In this document: piece after piece, positions 2,107-64,000 of the stretch
How positions within the stretch are numbered: the stretch's first letter is position 1
Layout of the letters: each line of letters begins with the position of its first letter
Assembly (NCBI GenBank): GCA_964035545.1
Contig: OZ037773.1
Location: 10,764,251 to 10,828,250 of the forward strand
From: Bugula neritina
Lineage: Eukaryota; Bryozoa; Gymnolaemata; Cheilostomatida; Bugulidae
Length of the DNA: 64,000 nt
Reading direction: 5' to 3'
Translations under genes and position numbers: made by a program
The notes under the pieces: generated by a model
The model's input: only the letters and a program-made list of their open reading frames with translations
Databases searched by the model: none
What the model was told of the DNA's origin: nothing

Positions 2107-3500
2107 ATGGACTCTCTTCTCTCAGTCTATGTATCCTGTAGATGGACTCTCTTCTCTCAGTCTATGTATCCTGTAGATGGACTCTCTTCTCTCAGTCTAT
2201 ATATCCTGTAGATGGACTCTCTTCTCTCAGTCTATGTATCCTGTAGATGGACTCTCCTCTCTCAGTCTATATATTCTGTATATGGACTCTCTTCTCTCAG
2301 TCTATGTATCCTGTAGATGGACTCTCTTCTCTCAGTCTATATATCCTGTAGATGGACTCTCTTCTCTCAGTCTATATATCCTGTAGATGGACTCTCTTCT
2401 CTCAGTCTATGTATCCTGTAGATGGACTCTCTTCTCTCAGTCTATATATCCTGTAGATGGACTCTCTTCTCTCAGTCTATATATCCTGTAGATGGACTCT
2501 CTTCTCTCAGTCTATGTATCCTGTAGATGGACTCTCTTCTCTTAGTCTATGTATCCTGTAGATGGACTCTCTTCTCTCAGTCTATGTATCCTGTGAATGG
2601 ACTCTCTTCTCTCAGTCTATATATCCTGTAGATGGACTATCTTCTCTCAGTCTATATATCCTGTAGATGGACTCTCTTCTCTCAGTCTATATATCCTGTA
2701 GATGGACTCTCTTCTCTCAGTCTATATATCCTGTAGATGGACTCTCTTCTCTCAGTCTATATATCCTGTAGATGGACTCTCTTCTCTCAGTCTATGTATC
2801 CTGTAGATGGACTCTCTTCTCTCAGTCTATATATCCTGTAGATGGACTCTCAGTCTATATATCCTGTAGATGGACTCTCAGTCTATATATCCTGTAGATG
2901 GACTATCTTCTCTCAGTCTATATATCCTGTAGATGGACTCTCTTCTCTCAGTCTATGTATCCTGTAGATGGACTATCTTCTCTCAGTCTATATATCCTGT
3001 AGATGGACTCTCTTCTCTCAGTCTATGTATCCTGTAGATGGACTCTCTTCTCTCAGTCTATATATCCTGTAGATGGACTCTCTTCTCTCAGTCTATGTAT
3101 CCTGTAGATGGACTCTCTTCTCTCAGTCTATGTATCCTGTAGATGGACTCTCCTCTCTCAGTCTATATATCCTGTAGATGGACTCTCTTCTCTCAGTCTA
3201 TGTATCCTGTAGATGGACTCTCTTCTCTCAGTCTATGTATCCTGTAGATGGACTCTCCTCTCTCAGTCTATATATCCTGTAGATGGACTCTCTTCTCTCA
3301 GTCTATATATCCTGTAGATGGACTCTCTTCTCTCAGTCTATGTATCCTGTAGATGGACTCTCTTCTCTCAGTCTATGTATCCTGTAGATGGACTCTCCTC
3401 TCTCAGTCTATATATCCTGTAGATGGACTCTCTTCTCTCAGTCTATGTATCCTGTAGATGGACTCTCTTCTCTCAGTCTATGTATCCTGTGAATGAACTC
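2102..3500 (+). repeat. 35-bp minisatellite starting at the MCCC2 stop codon
   Basis: About forty 35-bp units with core tgtagatggactctcttctc. The first unit overlaps the last coding bases: the TAG stop is the tag of tgtagatgg. A few units are shortened (near 2848 and 2871). It probably forms most of the MCCC2 3' UTR. Possible AATAAA signals downstream are at 3915-3920 and in the A-rich stretch near 3966. Confidence 0.93.
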
Positions 3501-12836: not shown

Positions 12837-27860
<15,024 letters not shown>

Positions 27861-48983: not shown

Positions 48984-50526
48984 ATGGCACACAATGAAAC
49001 ATTCAATTTCGAATACAACTCCAGTAGGGAATACAACTCTGGTAGAGAATACAACTCCAGTACAAAACACAACTCTGGTAGAGAATACAACTCCAGTACG
49101 AAACACAACTCTGGTAGAGAATACAACTCTAGTGTAAAACACAACTCTGGTAGAGAATACAACTCCAGTACGAAACACAAATTCATCCCTTCAACTTTCT
49201 CAGCTGCAACTTGTAGACCCAGATATAAAATCTACAACCCTGAGGTGTGTTCATATTTACAATACTGTGTGGCGTCACAATGTTTACTCTATTACTACTG
49301 TGTGGCGTCACAATGTTTACTCTATTACTACTGTGTGGTGTCACAATGTTTACTCTATTACTACTGTGTGGTGTCACAATGTTTACTCTATTATTCCTGT
49401 GGTGTCACTATGTTTACTCTATTATTCCTGTGGTGTCACAGTATTTACTCTATTACTACTGTGTGGCGTCACAGTATTCACTCTATTATTCCTGTATGGT
49501 GTCACAATGTTTTAGGGTATAGAAAGTACTAACCTAACTTACGGAAGACTTACGGCAGCGTTCCTTTCTAGAACTGGTGGGTTTGGATACCCTGAAATAC
49601 TGGACTCTAAAAGTATGTCCTACTTTAGAGGACTTGTGCCTCTGTCTAACACTTGTGTTGTGTGTCATGTCTTATAGCACTTGTGTTGTGTGTCATGTCT
49701 TATAGCACTTGTGTTGTGTGTCATGTCTTATAGCACTTGTGTTGTGTGTCATGTCTTATAGTACTTGTGTTGTGTGCCATGTTTTATAGCACCTGTGTTG
49801 TGTGTCATGTCTTATAGCACTTGTGTTGTGTGTCATGTCTTATAGCACTTGTGTTGTGTGTCATGTCTTATAGTACTTGTGTTGTGTGCCATGTCTTATA
49901 GCACCTGTGTTGTGTGTCATGTCTTATAGCATCTGTGTTGTGGCTTATAGCACCTGTGTTGTGTCTTATAGCACTTGTGTTGTGTGTCATGTCTTATAGC
50001 ACTTGTGTTGTGTGTCATGTCTTATAGCACCTGTGTTGTGTGTCATGTCTTATAGCATCTGTGTTGTGTGTCATGTCTTATAGCACTTGTGTTGTGTGTC
50101 ATGTCTTATAGCACTTGTGTTGTGTGTCATGTCTTATAGCACCTGTGTTGTGTGTCATGTCTTATAGCATCTGTGTCATGTCTTATAGCACCTGTGTTGT
50201 GTGTCATGTCTTATAGCATCTGTGTTGTGTGTCATGTCTTATAGCACTTGTGTTGTGTGTCATGTCTTATAGCATCTGTGTTGTGGCTTATAGCAACTGT
50301 GTTGTGTGTCATGTCTTATAGCACTTGTGTTGTTTGTCATTGTGCATTGTGGGAAAGTTAAATACTGACTCATTTTAACCAGCATAATGAGCTTCACACT
50401 AAAATAATGTATTCAACAATGTACCAAGAGAAGAATTCGCTAAATATTTATCACGATATTAAATAAGGCATTTATGAGATATTTTCCTTTCTTATTTAAT
50501 ACATAGTACATCAGATCGTATATAAT

Positions 50527-50564
<38 letters not shown>

Positions 50565-50817
50565 AAATGAGTGTTTATAAAACGTTACTAGAGTGCTCTA
50601 TAGAAATAAATCTAGAGCGTAAACATTAGAAGAAGTAAAATGAGATTTGATTAATATAATGGCATTTATTACTAGTAGTTTCGTACACAAGAACGATGTG
50701 CACTCGTCAGATAAATTAGCCACTAGTGGCTAATTTATCTGACGAGTGCACATCGTTCTTGTGTACGAAACTACTAGTAATAAATGCCATTATATTAATC
50801 AAATCTCATTTTACTTC

Positions 50818-50904
<87 letters not shown>

Positions 50905-53900
50905 CATATTACATAGGAGGAGTCAAAAAGACATTCTGGATTCTGCTAACTGTAGCGTGTTGCAGTGCACTCATTGTTCACACTTACAGCCTCATTTCCA
51001 GATTCTCTCAGTTCCCTGTCACTACCGAGGTTACTGTTGTCAATGCGAAAATCTTAGACTTTCCAGGTGGGCCTTAGTCTAGCAATATGTCAGCAGGTGT
51101 CTACTGACAGGTGTCTACTGACAGGTTTGTCTGACAGTTTATAATTACTTATCTATTGCAGCGGTGACAGTCTGTAACAGCAACATGCTAGCTGTACACA
51201 GCCCTGCTAATACCTCCAACACCACCTTCGATTACAAGAATGCCCGAACTGTCAACAACCAGATCAACTATTGTGAGTTGAATAATACACTCTATAAATG
51301 TATGTACACACACGCACACGCACATATATAATACACTGTCACTCTAATATCTCACATCTGACTCAACTTAACCTCTACTCAATTTACTGTAGTGAAACTC
51401 AACAATTCTCAGCTCGGACACCAAAAAGAAGATTTCATTCTCTCCGCCACATTTAATAGCGTAGCTCTGACATTGGACGACTTTGAGTTGTCTCTACATG
51501 GTTTATATGGCAACTGCTTTACCTTTAATGCTAATGGAAGTGCTCAAGTTCGCAGATCTGTACATGGCTTTTATGGTGAATATCATACTTCTCTCTCTCT
51601 ATCTCTCTCTACTCTACTTCTCTCTCCCTCTCCCTCTCTGTGAGGCAATATTGCTGTCTGGTCTTGTAGGATTAGAGTTGGTTCTGAACATTGAAACATA
51701 CAAATACTACATGGGACCGCTGACCTACCCTCTGGACTTTGCTGCTGCTTGGTTGAAGGTGTCCAAGCCAGGGGCAGCTTTTAAAATAGAAGAGATGAGT
51801 GTTGCTGTTTCTCCAAACACCATCAATATTCTCTCTATACATCAGGTAACTATATATATGTTATACATTATACACTATCTATATTCTCTCTATACATCAG
51901 GTAACTATATATATGTTATACATTATACACTATCTATATTCTCTCTATACATCAGGTAACTATATATATGTTATACATTATACACTATCAATATTCTCTC
52001 TATACATCAGGTAACTATATATATGTTATACATTATACACTATCTATATTCTCTCTATACATCAGGTAACTATATATATGTTATACATTATACACTATCA
52101 ATATTCTCTCTATACATCAGGTAACTATATACATGTTATACATTATACACTATCTATATTCTCTCTATACATCAGGTAACTATATATATGTTATACATTA
52201 TACACTATCTATATTCTCTCTATTTATCAAGTGACTATATATGTGTGCGTGTATGTATATACTATATACTACACTTGTATGTTTGCGACAGACTAACTTT
52301 GCTCGGCTAGGCATTCCATACGGAGATTGCTTCAGAGAAGACGATCCCAAACCCCTACTTTATCAGAAGAACAAAAGCTATGATAAGGACTTGTGTGATA
52401 ACACGTGCCTGCAAAGAGCGGTAATACAGTAATACAGTAATAGAGTAATACAGTAATAGAGTATTACAGTGGTGTCATAGTATAGAAATATACGAGTACT
52501 AATATGATGGTATAGTAATGCAGTAATATAATATTATGATATTGTTTATCTGCAGGTAATATTAGAGTGTTGTTGTTATATCAGTATAGTAGAAACCAAT
52601 ATAGCAGAGTTTGATGAGTCATGGGAATTGTGTAGACGAGACAACATAACGGAATGTGCAACTGATAATAGTAAGTGTTGTATAGTAATAGTACTGTATA
52701 GTAATAGTACTGTATAGTAATAGTACTGTATAGTAATAGTAAGTACTGTATAGTAATAGTAAGTATTGTATAGTAATAGTAAGTACTGTATAGTAATAGT
52801 ACTGTATAGTAATAGTAAGTACTGTATAGTAATAGTAAGTATCATATAGTAATAGTAAGTACTGTATAGTAATAGTAAGTACTGTATAGTAATAGTAAGT
52901 ATCATATAGTAATAGTAAGCACTGTATAGTAATAGTAAGTACTGTATAGTAATAGTAAGTACTGTATAGTAATAGTAAGTATCATATAGTAATAGTAAGC
53001 ACTGTATAGTAATAGTAAGTACTGTATAGTAATAGTAAGTACTGTATAGTAATAGTAAGTACTGTATAGTAATAGTACTGTATAGTAATAGTAAGTACTG
53101 TATAGTAATAGTAAGTACTGTATAGTAATAGTAAGTACTGTATAGTAATAGTAAGTACTGCATAGTAATAGTAAGTACTGTATAGTAATAGTAAGTACTG
53201 TATAGTAATAGTAAGTACTGTATAGTAATAGTAAGTACTGTATAGTAATAGTAAGTACTGTATAGTAATAGTACTGTATAGTAATAGTAAGTACTGTATA
53301 GTAATAGTAAGTACTGTATAGTAATAGTAAGTACTGTATAGTAATAGTAAGTACTGCATAGTAATAGTAAGTACTGTATAGTAATAGTAAGTACTGTATA
53401 GTAATAGTAAGTACTGTATAGTAATAGTAAGTATTGTATAGTATTAGTAAGTATCGTATAGTAATAGTAAGTACTGTATAGTAATAGTAAGTATCATATA
53501 GTAATAGTAAGCACTGTATAGTAATAGTACTGTATAGTAATAGTAAGTACTGTATAGTAATAGTAAGTACTGTATAGTAATAGTAAGTACTGTATAGTAA
53601 TAGTAAGTACTGTATAGTAATAGTAAGTACTGTATAGTAATAGTAAGTACTGTATAGTAATAGTAAGTACTGTATAGTAATAGTAAGTACTGTATAGTAA
53701 TAGTAAGTACTGTATAGTAATAGTAAGCACTGTATAGTAATAGTAAGTACTGTATAGTAATAGTAAGTACTGTATAGTAATAGTAAGTACTGTATAGTAA
53801 GTACTGTATAGTAATAGTAAGTATTGTATAGTAATAGTAAGTACTGTATAGTAATAGTAAGTACTGTATAGTAATAGTAAGTATTGTATAGTAATAGTAA

Positions 53901-56900
53901 GTACTGTATAGTAATAGTAAGTATTGTATAGTAATAGTAAGTACTGTATAGTAATAGTAAGTATTGTATAGTAATAGTAAGTACTGTATAGTAATAGTAA
54001 GTACTGTATAGTAATAGTAAGTATCATATAGTAATAGTAAGCACTGTATAGTAATAGTAAGTACTGTATAGTAATAGTAAGTACTGTATAGTAATAGTAA
54101 ATACTGTGTAGTAATAGTAAGTACTGTATAGTAATAGTAAGTACTGTATAGTAATAGTAAGTACTGTATAGTAATAGCAAGTACTGTATAGTAGTAATAG
54201 TACTGTATAGTAATAGTAAGTACTGTATAGTAATAGTAAGTATTGTATAATAACAGTAAGTACTGTATAGTAATAGTAAGCACTGTATAGTAATAGTAAG
54301 TACTGTATAGTAATAGTAAGTACTGTATAGTAATAGTAAGTATTGTATAATAATAGTAAGTACTGTATAGTAATAGTAAGTACTGTATAGTAATAGTACT
54401 GTATAGTAATAGTAAGTACTGTATAGTAATAGTAAGTACTGTATAGTAATAGTAAGTACTGTATAGTAATAGTAAGTATTGTATAGTAATAGTAAGTACT
54501 GTATAGTAATAGTAAGTACTGTATAGTAATAGTACTGTATAGTAAGTATTGTATAGTAATAGTAAGTATTGTATAATAACAGTAAGTACTGTATAGTAAT
54601 AGTAAGCACTGTATAGTAATAGTAAGTACTGTATAGTAATAGTAAGTACTGTATAGTAATAGTAAGTATTGTATAATAATAGTAAGTACTGTATAGTAAT
54701 AGTAAGCACTGTATAGTAATAGTAAGCACTGTATAGTAATAGTAAGTGCTGTATAGTAATAGTAAGCACTGTATAGTAATAGTAAGCACTGTATAGTAAT
54801 AGTAAGTGCTGTATAGTAATAGTAAGTACTGTATAGTAATAGTAAGTAGTGTATAGTAATAGTAAGTATTGTATAATAATAGTAAGTACTGTATAGTAAT
54901 AGTAAGTACTGTATAGTAATAGTACTGTATAGTAATAGTAAGTACTGTATAGTAATAGTAAGTACTGTATAGTAATAGTAAGTACTGTATAGTAATAGTA
55001 AGTATTGTATAGTAATAGTAAGTACTGTATAGTAATAGTAAGTACTGTATAGTAATAGTACTGTATAGTAAGTATTGTATAGTAATAGTAAGTATTGTAT
55101 AATAACAGTAAGTACTGTATAGTAATAGTAAGCACTGTATAGTAATAGTAAGTACTGTATAGTAATAGTAAGTACTGTATAGTAATAGTAAGTATTGTAT
55201 AATAATAGTAAGTACTGTATAGTAATAGTAAGCACTGTATAGTAATAGTAAGCACTGTATAGTAATAGTAAGTGCTGTATAGTAATAGTAAGCACTGTAT
55301 AGTAATAGTAAGCACTGTATAGTAATAGTAAGTGCTGTATAGTAATAGTAAGTACTGTATAGTAATAGTAAGTAGTGTATAGTAATAGTAAGTATTGTAT
55401 AGTAATAGTAAGTACTGTATAGTAATAGTAAGCACTGTATAGTAATAGTAAGCACTGTATAGTAATAGTAAGTGCTGTATAGTAATAGTAAGCACTGTAT
55501 AGTAATAGTAAGTACTGTGTAGTAATAGTAAGTACTGTATAGTAATAGTAAGTATCATATAGTAATAGTAAGCACTGTATAGTAATAGTAAGTACTGTAT
55601 AGTAATAGTAAGTACTGTATAGTAATAGTAAGTACTGTATAGTAATAGTAAGTATCGTATAGTAATAGTAAGCACTGTATAGTAATAGTACTGTATAGTA
55701 ATAGTAAGTACTGTATAGTAATAGTAAGTACTGTATAGTAATAGTAAGTACTGTATAGTAATAGTAAGTACTGTATAGTAATAGTAAGTACTGTATAGTA
55801 ATAGTAAGTACTGTATAGTAAGTATTGTATAGTAATAGTAAGTACTGTATAGTAATAGTAAGCACTGTATAGTAATAGTAAGTACTGTATAGTAATAGTA
55901 AGTACTGTATAGTAATAGTAAGTACTGTATAGTAATAGTAAGTACTGCATAGTAATAGTACTGTATAGTAATAGTAAGTACTGTATAGTAATAGTAAGTA
56001 CTGTATAGTAATAGTAAGTACTGTATAGTAATAGTAAGTACTGCATAGTAATAGTAAGTACTGCATAGTAATAGTAAGTACTGTATAGTAATAGTAAGTA
56101 CTGTATAGTAATAGTAAGTACTGTATAGTATTAGTAAGTATCGTATAGTAATAGTAAGTACCGTATAGTAATAGTAAGTACTGTATAGTAATAGTAAGTA
56201 CTGTATAGTAATAGTAAGTACTGTATAGTAATAGTAAGTACTGTATAGTAAGTACTGTATAGTAATAGTAAGTATTGTATAGTAATAGTAAGTACTGTAT
56301 AGCAATAGTAAGTACTGTATAGTAATAGTAAGTATTGTATAGTAATAGTAAGTACTGTATAGTAATAGTAAGTATTGTATAGTAATAGTAAGTACTGTAT
56401 AGTAATAGTAAGTATTGTATAGTAATAGTAAGTACTGTATAGTAATAGTAAGCACTGTATAGTAATAGTAAGTACTGTATAGTAATAGTAAGTACTGTAT
56501 AGTAATAGTAAGTACTGTATAGTAATAGTAAGTATTGTATAGTAATAGTAAGTACTGTATAGTAATAGTAAGTACTGCATAGTAATAGTAAGTACTGTAT
56601 AGTAATAGTAAGTACTGTATAGTAATAGTAAGTACTGTTTTAGTGTGTCTAGCAGAGATGTGGGCAGAGTATGATTCTGGTAATCTCCCCTGTACAGAGT
56701 GTCTACCTCTTTGCAGGTAAGTATTCCGTTATTTTATATTATACTTATACTTACTATATATAAAGTTACCACTACATATTATATGTTATATGTTATTTGT
56801 TATATGTTTTATGTTATATATTACATGTTATATGTTATTTGTTATATGTTTTAGTGATGTTTTATATGAGGTGTCTGCTGACAAGAGTAAGTGGCCGTTA

Positions 56901-62749: not shown

Positions 62750-62990
62750 ACATAGTTGTACAATATATAGTTATACAATACATAGTTATACAATACATAG
62801 TTATACAATATATAGTTATACAATACATAGTTATACAATACATAGTTATACAATACATAGTTATACAATACATAGTTATACAATACATAGTTATACAATA
62901 CATAGTTATACAACATATAGTTATACAATATATAGTTATACAATACATAGTTATACAATATATAGTTATACAATATATAGTTATATAATA
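62750..62990 (+). repeat. 15-bp minisatellite right of the transposon
   Basis: About 16 copies of atagttatacaatac or atagttatacaatat. Confidence 0.95.
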
Positions 62991-64000
62991 GTAAGTACTG
63001 TATAGTAATAGTAAGTACTGTATAGTAATAGTAAGTACTGTATAGTAAGTACTGTATAGTAATAGTAAGTATTGTATAGTAATAGTAAGTACTGTATAGT
63101 AATAGTAAGTACTGTATAGTAATAGTAAGTATTGTATAGTAATAGTAAGTACTGTATAGTAATAGTAAGTATTGTATAGTAATAGTAAGTACTGTATAGT
63201 AATAGTAAGTATTGTATAGTAATAGTAAGTACTGTATAGTAATAGTAAGTACTGTATAGTAATAGTAAGTATCATATAGTAATAGTAAGCACTGTATAGT
63301 AATAGTAAGTACTGTATAGTAATAGTAAGTACTGTATAGTAATAGTAAATACTGTGTAGTAATAGTAAGTACTGTATAGTAATAGTAAGTACTGTATAGT
63401 AATAGTAAGTACTGTATAGTAATAGCAAGTACTGTATAGTAGTAATAGTACTGTATAGTAATAGTAAGTACTGTATAGTAATAGTAAGTATTGTATAATA
63501 ACAGTAAGTACTGTATAGTAATAGTAAGCACTGTATAGTAATAGTAAGTACTGTATAGTAATAGTAAGTACTGTATAGTAATAGTAAGTATTGTATAATA
63601 ATAGTAAGTACTGTATAGTAATAGTAAGTACTGTATAGTAATAGTACTGTATAGTAATAGTAAGTACTGTATAGTAATAGTAAGTACTGTATAGTAATAG
63701 TAAGTACTGTATAGTAATAGTAAGTATTGTATAGTAATAGTAAGTACTGTATAGTAATAGTAAGTACTGTATAGTAATAGTACTGTATAGTAAGTATTGT
63801 ATAGTAATAGTAAGTATTGTATAATAACAGTAAGTACTGTATAGTAATAGTAAGCACTGTATAGTAATAGTAAGTACTGTATAGTAATAGTAAGTACTGT
63901 ATAGTAATAGTAAGTATTGTATAATAATAGTAAGTACTGTATAGTAATAGTAAGCACTGTATAGTAATAGTAAGCACTGTATAGTAATAGTAAGTGCTGT
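62988..64000 (+). repeat. 20-bp satellite, second copy of DEG/ENaC intron 8 array
   Basis: Same unit as 52671-56635. Rare variants line up at a fixed offset of 9248 bp: atcatat at 63271 with 54023, aatagcaagt at 63421 with 54173, and the window end with 54752. It continues past the window. Confidence 0.93.

Follow-up and report, generated by a model that had tools for sequence, protein, structure and literature searches.

A perfect palindrome in Bugula neritina as a leader-only insertion of a Penelope-like element, probably made by convergent target-primed reverse transcription

Introduction

A perfect palindrome carrying a hammerhead motif on each strand lies in a 64,000-nucleotide (nt) stretch of the bryozoan Bugula neritina (assembly GCA_964035545.1, contig OZ037773.1, positions 10,764,251 to 10,828,250, forward strand; hereafter the window), and it is compared here with Penelope-like elements (PLEs) and other retroelements that contain hammerheads. 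Inverted pseudo-long terminal repeats (pLTRs) and short 3' extensions have been mentioned as peculiarities of PLEs (PMC8969392). In the bdelloid Adineta vaga, Pen2 and Pen2a have an open reading frame (ORF) for a reverse transcriptase (RT) and an endonuclease (EN), pLTRs of which one is inverted, palindromes at the inverted junctions and an optional 31-bp tail on one inverted pLTR, and self-priming on an antisense template was proposed for them (PMC3846280). The Poseidon element PAc of the green anole has a hammerhead near the start of its ORF and AT-rich targets; its enzyme, a predicted dimer, cuts and extends both strands in vitro, and reverse transcription starts at two adjacent sites that bound a tail (PMC11167929). 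The steps after first-strand synthesis are left open in the accessible part of that work. Type I hammerheads also occur in the retroelement repeats of retrozymes and of small circular RNA (circRNA) elements of animals, which are called non-autonomous (PMC7229834, PMC4918200).

The palindrome studied here is a leader-only insertion of a young PLE, and with a probability of about 0.82 it was made by convergent target-primed reverse transcription. The element shares the one-sided tail with Pen2/Pen2a but differs in that those were described with few copies and a self-priming model, whereas the arm-by-arm tests below favour two primings. The main RT start of PAc lies 111-118 bp into the ORF, while here site S1 precedes the ATG by 45 nt; a rule of one start site per end is not reported in the available part of the anole work (PMC11167929), and it is the rule added by this study. 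In contrast to retrozymes and the small circRNA elements, the family here has its own RT/EN ORF of 706 aa, so that the absence of coding capacity expected of a retrozyme does not apply. No statement of the one-of-each rule or of convergent priming in PLEs was found in the searches made of open-licence PMC papers. The first papers on hammerheads in PLEs are reportedly earlier work in other journals.

Structure of the insertion

Positions 50625-50824 form an exact palindrome of 100 + 100 bp, centred at 50724|50725 with a spacer of 0. It is the sole perfect palindrome in the window with arms of at least 15 bp and more than two different letters, and the inverted-repeat listing at this place gives 105 nt at 98% identity. 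The preliminary description, made from the sequence of the window, had reported this palindrome with a hammerhead on each strand, and both are borne out, the Rfam family RF00163 matching both strands; what it missed is the 64-bp tail on the left (50561-50624). The structure is asymmetric, since the left arm extends into the tail and the right arm ends at (AT)n, and the full insertion is 50561-50824.

Every arm in this study was measured against one genomic copy, with d as the distance from the tail end. Arms starting at d0 (the tail end, S1) are called tailed (T) and arms starting at d64 (S2) untailed (U). The window insertion is a T+U pair in which the T arm and the U arm both reach d165. Its features are as follows:

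50519-50560, no strand: (AT)n target on the tailed side (Tandem Repeats Finder, TRF, array 50519-50561; the arm begins at 50561)
50561-50624, minus strand: tail, the 64 nt separating the two putative RT start sites, with the S1 end at 50561; on one arm only, as in sister copies
50561-50571, minus strand: CTCATTTTACT for the second time, its end coinciding with S1; the first copy of this arm is 73 nt away
50625-50724, minus strand: left (tailed, T) arm, a copy of the element's putative 5' leader (pLTR), d64-165; exact mirror of the right arm
50664-50716, minus strand: hammerhead motif (Rfam), with the predicted cleavage 50670|50669 placed by mirror symmetry
50724-50725, no strand: arm junction with a 2-nt overlap TA, a microhomology (junction analysis)
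50725-50824, plus strand: right (untailed, U) arm, a leader copy from S2 with its outer end at 50824 (arm measurement, mirror symmetry)
50733-50785, plus strand: type I hammerhead motif (Rfam, hand-built structure), predicted cleavage 50779|50780, outer stem I at about 50725-50791
50805-50815, plus strand: 11-nt motif CTCATTTTACT, 9-10 nt before S2
50823-50909, no strand: (AT)n target on the untailed side (TRF)
50919-51077, plus strand: host exon, start of the amiloride-sensitive sodium channel (ASC) domain (PF00858, E 9.4e-7); context only

The element family

When the arm was searched in the 215.8-Mb genome, at least 56 scored matches were obtained (40 of the 224 candidates were scored), at least 47 of them at 100% over 100 bases, and many lie as minus/plus pairs 0 to 3 kb apart. 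The 41-nt hammerhead core occurs at 230 places (120 + 110) with at most 2 mismatches, while the reversed control gave none. By exact pattern the genome holds 124 tailed ends, i.e., more than 100 insertions, and 120 untailed ends. The palindrome had first been seen as a peculiarity of one intron; it is instead one insertion among many scattered through the genome, which share their ends and differ in their junctions. The usual layout is (AT)n, arm, variable interior, arm, 64-nt tail and (AT)n, and in long copies the interior codes for protein with the C-terminus facing outward.

One sister copy has an ORF of 706 aa without stops whose ATG lies 45 nt past the tail, and the arm plus tail is therefore taken as the 5' leader of the mRNA. 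Four full-length, stop-free copies at 95-100% identity were found in the genome search for this ORF, the other matches being mostly at 45-53%. Sequence searches against Pfam, NCBIfam and PDB gave the ORF no name; the fold search did, indicating a telomerase-like RT. The C-terminus, which the fold search barely reached, was folded separately and appears GIY-YIG-like in a low-confidence model. The Penelope link suggested in the preliminary description, tested via these longer copies, is thereby supported. The other traits of PLEs are present as well: pLTRs may be direct or inverted with an optional tail, and exactly one tail was found in 50 of 51 inverted pairs; as for the AT-rich target, alternating AT of at least 10 nt flanks both sides in 45 of 51 insertions, while (AT)6 or longer makes up 0.36% of the window.

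Two database proteins were also noted. P0001 of Solemya velum has the PLE RT/EN region twice within a single gene model, and P0031, a metagenome protein of 408 aa, has 88% identity to the ORF across 57% of it and is possibly from a close relative of the host's element.

Two start sites, one of each per insertion

The loci read were all the places listed first (C1 to C5, of the 230), the C6-C8 loci from the best arm matches, and the window. A place was included if one or both arms kept the hammerhead core intact, so that insertions with two very short arms are missed. Neighbouring arms were paired blind to their labels, giving 51 two-armed insertions. Apart from three off-site cases, all arms start at d0 or d64, and 50 of the 51 insertions combine one S1 start with one S2 start; two tails were seen once and two untailed arms never. 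When exact end patterns were paired by coordinates alone over C1-C7, one of each was found in 67 of 68 cases, a count that uses the 120 U ends and the first 100 of the 124 T ends, the T list stopping at C7. Among C6-C7 loci never read before it was 11/11.

The rule recurs in a second PLE family, whose protein is about 53% identical and which uses an S2 of its own, with a tail that measures about 58 nt by eye. Its head-to-head pairs have one of each in 16 of 18 cases, three of the 18 having been read previously in whole or part, and in 13 of 15 at unseen loci only; the tailed pattern used here was the leader-tail junction rather than the tail end. At one locus of this family, L088, Rfam listed no hammerhead at E up to 10, and a CUGAAGA...GAA core is visible by eye.

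The two copies of the motif CTCATTTTACT, one at S1 and one beside S2, stand 73 nt apart and are possibly a pair of binding sites for a dimer.

As to the remaining loci, L009, L010, L011, L016, L020, L021, L030 and L033 were dropped in favour of longer pieces of the same loci, and L001-L008 are unused. L052 (1-474), L071, L072 (840-1200), L078 and L079 run off the fetched piece and are unclassified, and L062 lacks the outer end of one arm. L027 and L055 are T+U by inspection but contain foreign DNA, and they stand outside the 51: at L027 2374-3072 and L055 1576-1799 the arms are broken up by foreign or minisatellite DNA, and the L055 minisatellite sits inside an insertion of this family. L029, L036 and L052 hold two or three neighbouring insertions of this family, split by (AT)n or short DNA.

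A probable common template of the two arms

A C/T variant at d75 is identical in both arms in 41 of 41 insertions (24 CC, 17 TT), against 19.9 discordant pairs expected, which points to a common template for the two arms. Arm classes agree similarly, with both arms of leader class in 22 pairs, both long in 11 and mixed in one (Fisher 4e-8; another 16 pairs, having an arm shorter than 157, were excluded). Beyond the leader the picture is mixed: the partner arm is clearly the closest copy in five of ten measurable pairs; for example, the arms of L042 differ at 1 position in 455 while the nearest other copy differs at 16, and those of L048 at 3 in 561 versus 7. One RNA was probably copied for both arms. 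Convergent target-primed reverse transcription on two RNA molecules from the same source locus is a sub-case whose odds overlap with those of the general model; it would explain the two primings, and the matching alleles if there is one source locus, and dimeric ribonucleoproteins with cis-preference are plausible. Two RNAs alone would not force one S1 and one S2 start in 50 of 51 insertions, and we regard this version as possible but doubtful.

Arm lengths and junctions

The longer reach belongs to the U arm in 22 insertions and to the T arm in 19, and is equal in nine (n = 50). This bears on self-priming, in which a fold-back of the first cDNA, or of an antisense transcript, would be copied to a hairpin, with a loop or later trimming making the arms unequal. 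Such a process was put forward for the bdelloid Penelopes on account of the palindromes at their inverted junctions (PMC3846280), and it accounts for the equal arms (9/50) and for the identical alleles (41/41). A copied arm cannot outreach its template, yet U exceeds T by more than 10 nt in 17 of 50 insertions (T is ahead to that extent in 11 of 50), and T has 64 nt that are absent from U. Moreover, trimming at the centre should shorten the U arm too; of the 11 insertions (among 50) whose T arm stops short of 105 nt, 10 nonetheless have a U arm that reaches 162-167. Two separate starts are needed at least in these cases, because a fold-back copy is not longer than its template and the U arm is unable to supply the tail. 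Since the U arm outreaches the T arm, self-priming is contradicted for the unequal class; the cDNA fold-back reading was tested and dropped on these arm measurements, and as a general account it is improbable.

Of 100 arm ends, 58 fall at d157-174, including 35 at 165 or 166, which is the outer end of hammerhead stem I, and both ends lie at 150-174 in 24 of 50 insertions. Position d165 may thus correspond to the 5' end of the RNA, as judged from sequence. At the 49 junctions (L028, the reference copy, is absent from this count), an overlap of at least 2 nt was present in 30, as compared with 17-22% expected by random joining.

The hammerhead motif

RF00163 (Hammerhead_1) matches each arm at model positions 1-45, at 50733-50785 on the plus strand and 50664-50716 on the minus strand, with 28.3 bits and E 4.6e-5 in a 341-base search. 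This is below the Rfam gathering score of 34, and the default scan of the window listed no hammerhead, so that the covariance model agrees with the preliminary description in placing a match on each arm but does not lift it over the curated threshold. The anatomy and the cleavage site 50779/50780 given there were reproduced in a hand-built structure, in which 21/21 pairs are standard (stem I 6+6 with a UA bulge, stem II 6, stem III 3), the core CUGACGA, GAA and A17 is present, and the predicted cut falls between 50779 and 50780. Because the catalytic core and three stems of type I were found with a score under the curated threshold, the arm is described as a motif fitting a hammerhead rather than as a proven ribozyme. 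The predicted fold has stem I closing right where the arm begins. A genome-wide Rfam search for hammerheads gave nothing, and it gave the same empty outcome in 14 control genomes, hence it is uninformative. Rfam matches at the palindrome to rli48, mir-210 and others were set aside as due to the hairpin itself; the palindrome at L088 gives such miRNA matches too. The stem III segment ACUACUAGU (window 50770-50778) is almost self-complementary, and two hammerheads could form a shared stem III through it.

Both 50919-51077 and 51362-51640 match Pfam ASC, and the palindrome lies immediately upstream of the first of these in an ASC channel gene, consistent with the ion-channel setting noted at the outset. 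It had been proposed that cleavage there would cut the channel pre-mRNA, and the complete catalytic core speaks for a functional intronic pair. On either strand, though, the hammerhead sits in the 3' arm and its own perfect complement is transcribed first; the predicted folding energy is -162.5 kcal/mol for the 200-nt hairpin versus -11.5 for the hammerhead. Since the hairpin outweighs the hammerhead in this way and the complement precedes it, cleavage of the host pre-mRNA is unlikely in these predictions. The anole PLE hammerhead showed no cleavage in the absence of protein, according to the part of that report available (PMC11167929). None of 100 arms ends at the cleavage site (d105-114), and the template RNAs were therefore uncut there. 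A functional pair is accordingly very improbable, and the hammerhead is probably a passenger of the leader, without action in this copy.

Proposed mechanism

The model of convergent target-primed reverse transcription builds on what the sequences show: start sites fixed at S1 and S2, each used once in an insertion, arms that end at varying positions, an allele common to both arms, and microhomology at the junctions. The mRNA of the element would begin with a hammerhead-folding leader of about 100 nt, followed by S2, the 64-nt tail and S1 at 45 nt upstream of the ATG. Cuts would be made in both DNA strands of an (AT)n target, and the two 3' ends would prime cDNA synthesis, one of them at S2 and one at S1. 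The arms would then be cDNAs from two primers, a dimeric RT having copied a single RNA twice (or two RNAs of common source). Both cDNAs would extend to the RNA 5' end, which would lie some 165 nt from S1, and each would therefore be a first strand. Their 3' ends would meet, often pair across 2-4 nt and be filled in, giving a head-to-head inverted repeat with the tail on one side only. Where both cDNAs run off the RNA 5' end, two nearly equal arms and a near-perfect palindrome would result. All the evidence comes from one assembly, and target duplications are unreadable inside (AT)n.

S2 may usually be used first. Solo insertions flanked by (AT)n at each end comprise eight U-only and no T-only cases (by eye; p 0.008), solo arms joining other DNA are six U and two T (L064, L065), and arms that stop before d150 are 12 T versus one U (p 0.02 per nt copied). 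This suggests the order weakly, because a family 2 leader plus tail in L064 (about 2780-2980, minus strand), flanked by (AT)n left and right, looks T-only.

That copy and the two T-only solo arms count against the S2-first step, and several other points weigh against the model itself. Three arms start off-site (L029 at d93, L036 at d55 and L068 at d112), L054 2761-3004 is the sole T+T pair of family 1 with a tail on both ends, and the family 2 exceptions among 18 are one T+T and one U+U. The other five of the ten long pairs tie or do worse in the comparison of partner arms (L023 through a 12-nt gap), with p 0.05 in a shuffle test, and gene conversion between arms could also make the alleles agree. 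Of the 49 junctions, 12 have a few extra nt, four are blunt and three have a 1-nt overlap. In addition, the start site used by the anole enzyme in vitro was no different between strands, as described in the part of that work available (PMC11167929), so a strict division of labour would not be expected from that work alone.

Two further explanations concern the palindrome itself. Perfect palindromes are a known class of assembly or fold-back read artefacts. Across the 51 paired insertions the asymmetric ends are the same and the junctions take many forms, the window tail is on the left arm only and the outer ends lie in (AT)n; an artefact at this locus, which the preliminary description had allowed for, is hardly credible. 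A miniature inverted-repeat transposable element (MITE), i.e., a DNA transposon whose terminal repeats chance to contain a hammerhead, would fit the 100-bp inverted repeats, dispersed copies and (AT)n flanks but was rejected as next to impossible, since the 64-nt tail makes the ends unequal where identical terminal inverted repeats are expected, arm lengths vary freely and the interiors of long copies are outward RT/EN coding.

Significance

The sister copies suggest, by their sequence, that the element enters DNA via two DNA strands made from two fixed start points on RNA and joined end to end. What is new here is that the arm ends, lengths, alleles and junctions of many insertions with near-identical arms can separate competing ideas of PLE insertion, and that the one-of-each rule recurs in a second family. 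For a purified enzyme, convergent target-primed reverse transcription predicts that S1 and S2 are used as a pair, with convergent products from one RNA. Dispersed perfect palindromes that bear a ribozyme motif on each strand, and could otherwise be mistaken for artefacts or regulators, are accounted for as well. A broader idea, to which we would give even odds, is that PLEs have no ordinary second-strand step: each subunit of a dimeric RT would serve one cut strand and hold the single RNA at its own start site, the two sites being about 60 nt apart, the first strand would be made twice convergently, and microhomology would join the products. If this were true, the tail and the inverted pLTRs would be the direct footprint of a two-headed machine, with perfect palindromes as its shortest product.

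Other features of the window

Minisatellites fill much of the window, with 126 TRF rows including a 26-nt unit repeated about 497 times. These stretches include 13169-26071, 52666-56638, 62982-64000 and many others, and apparently occupy introns.
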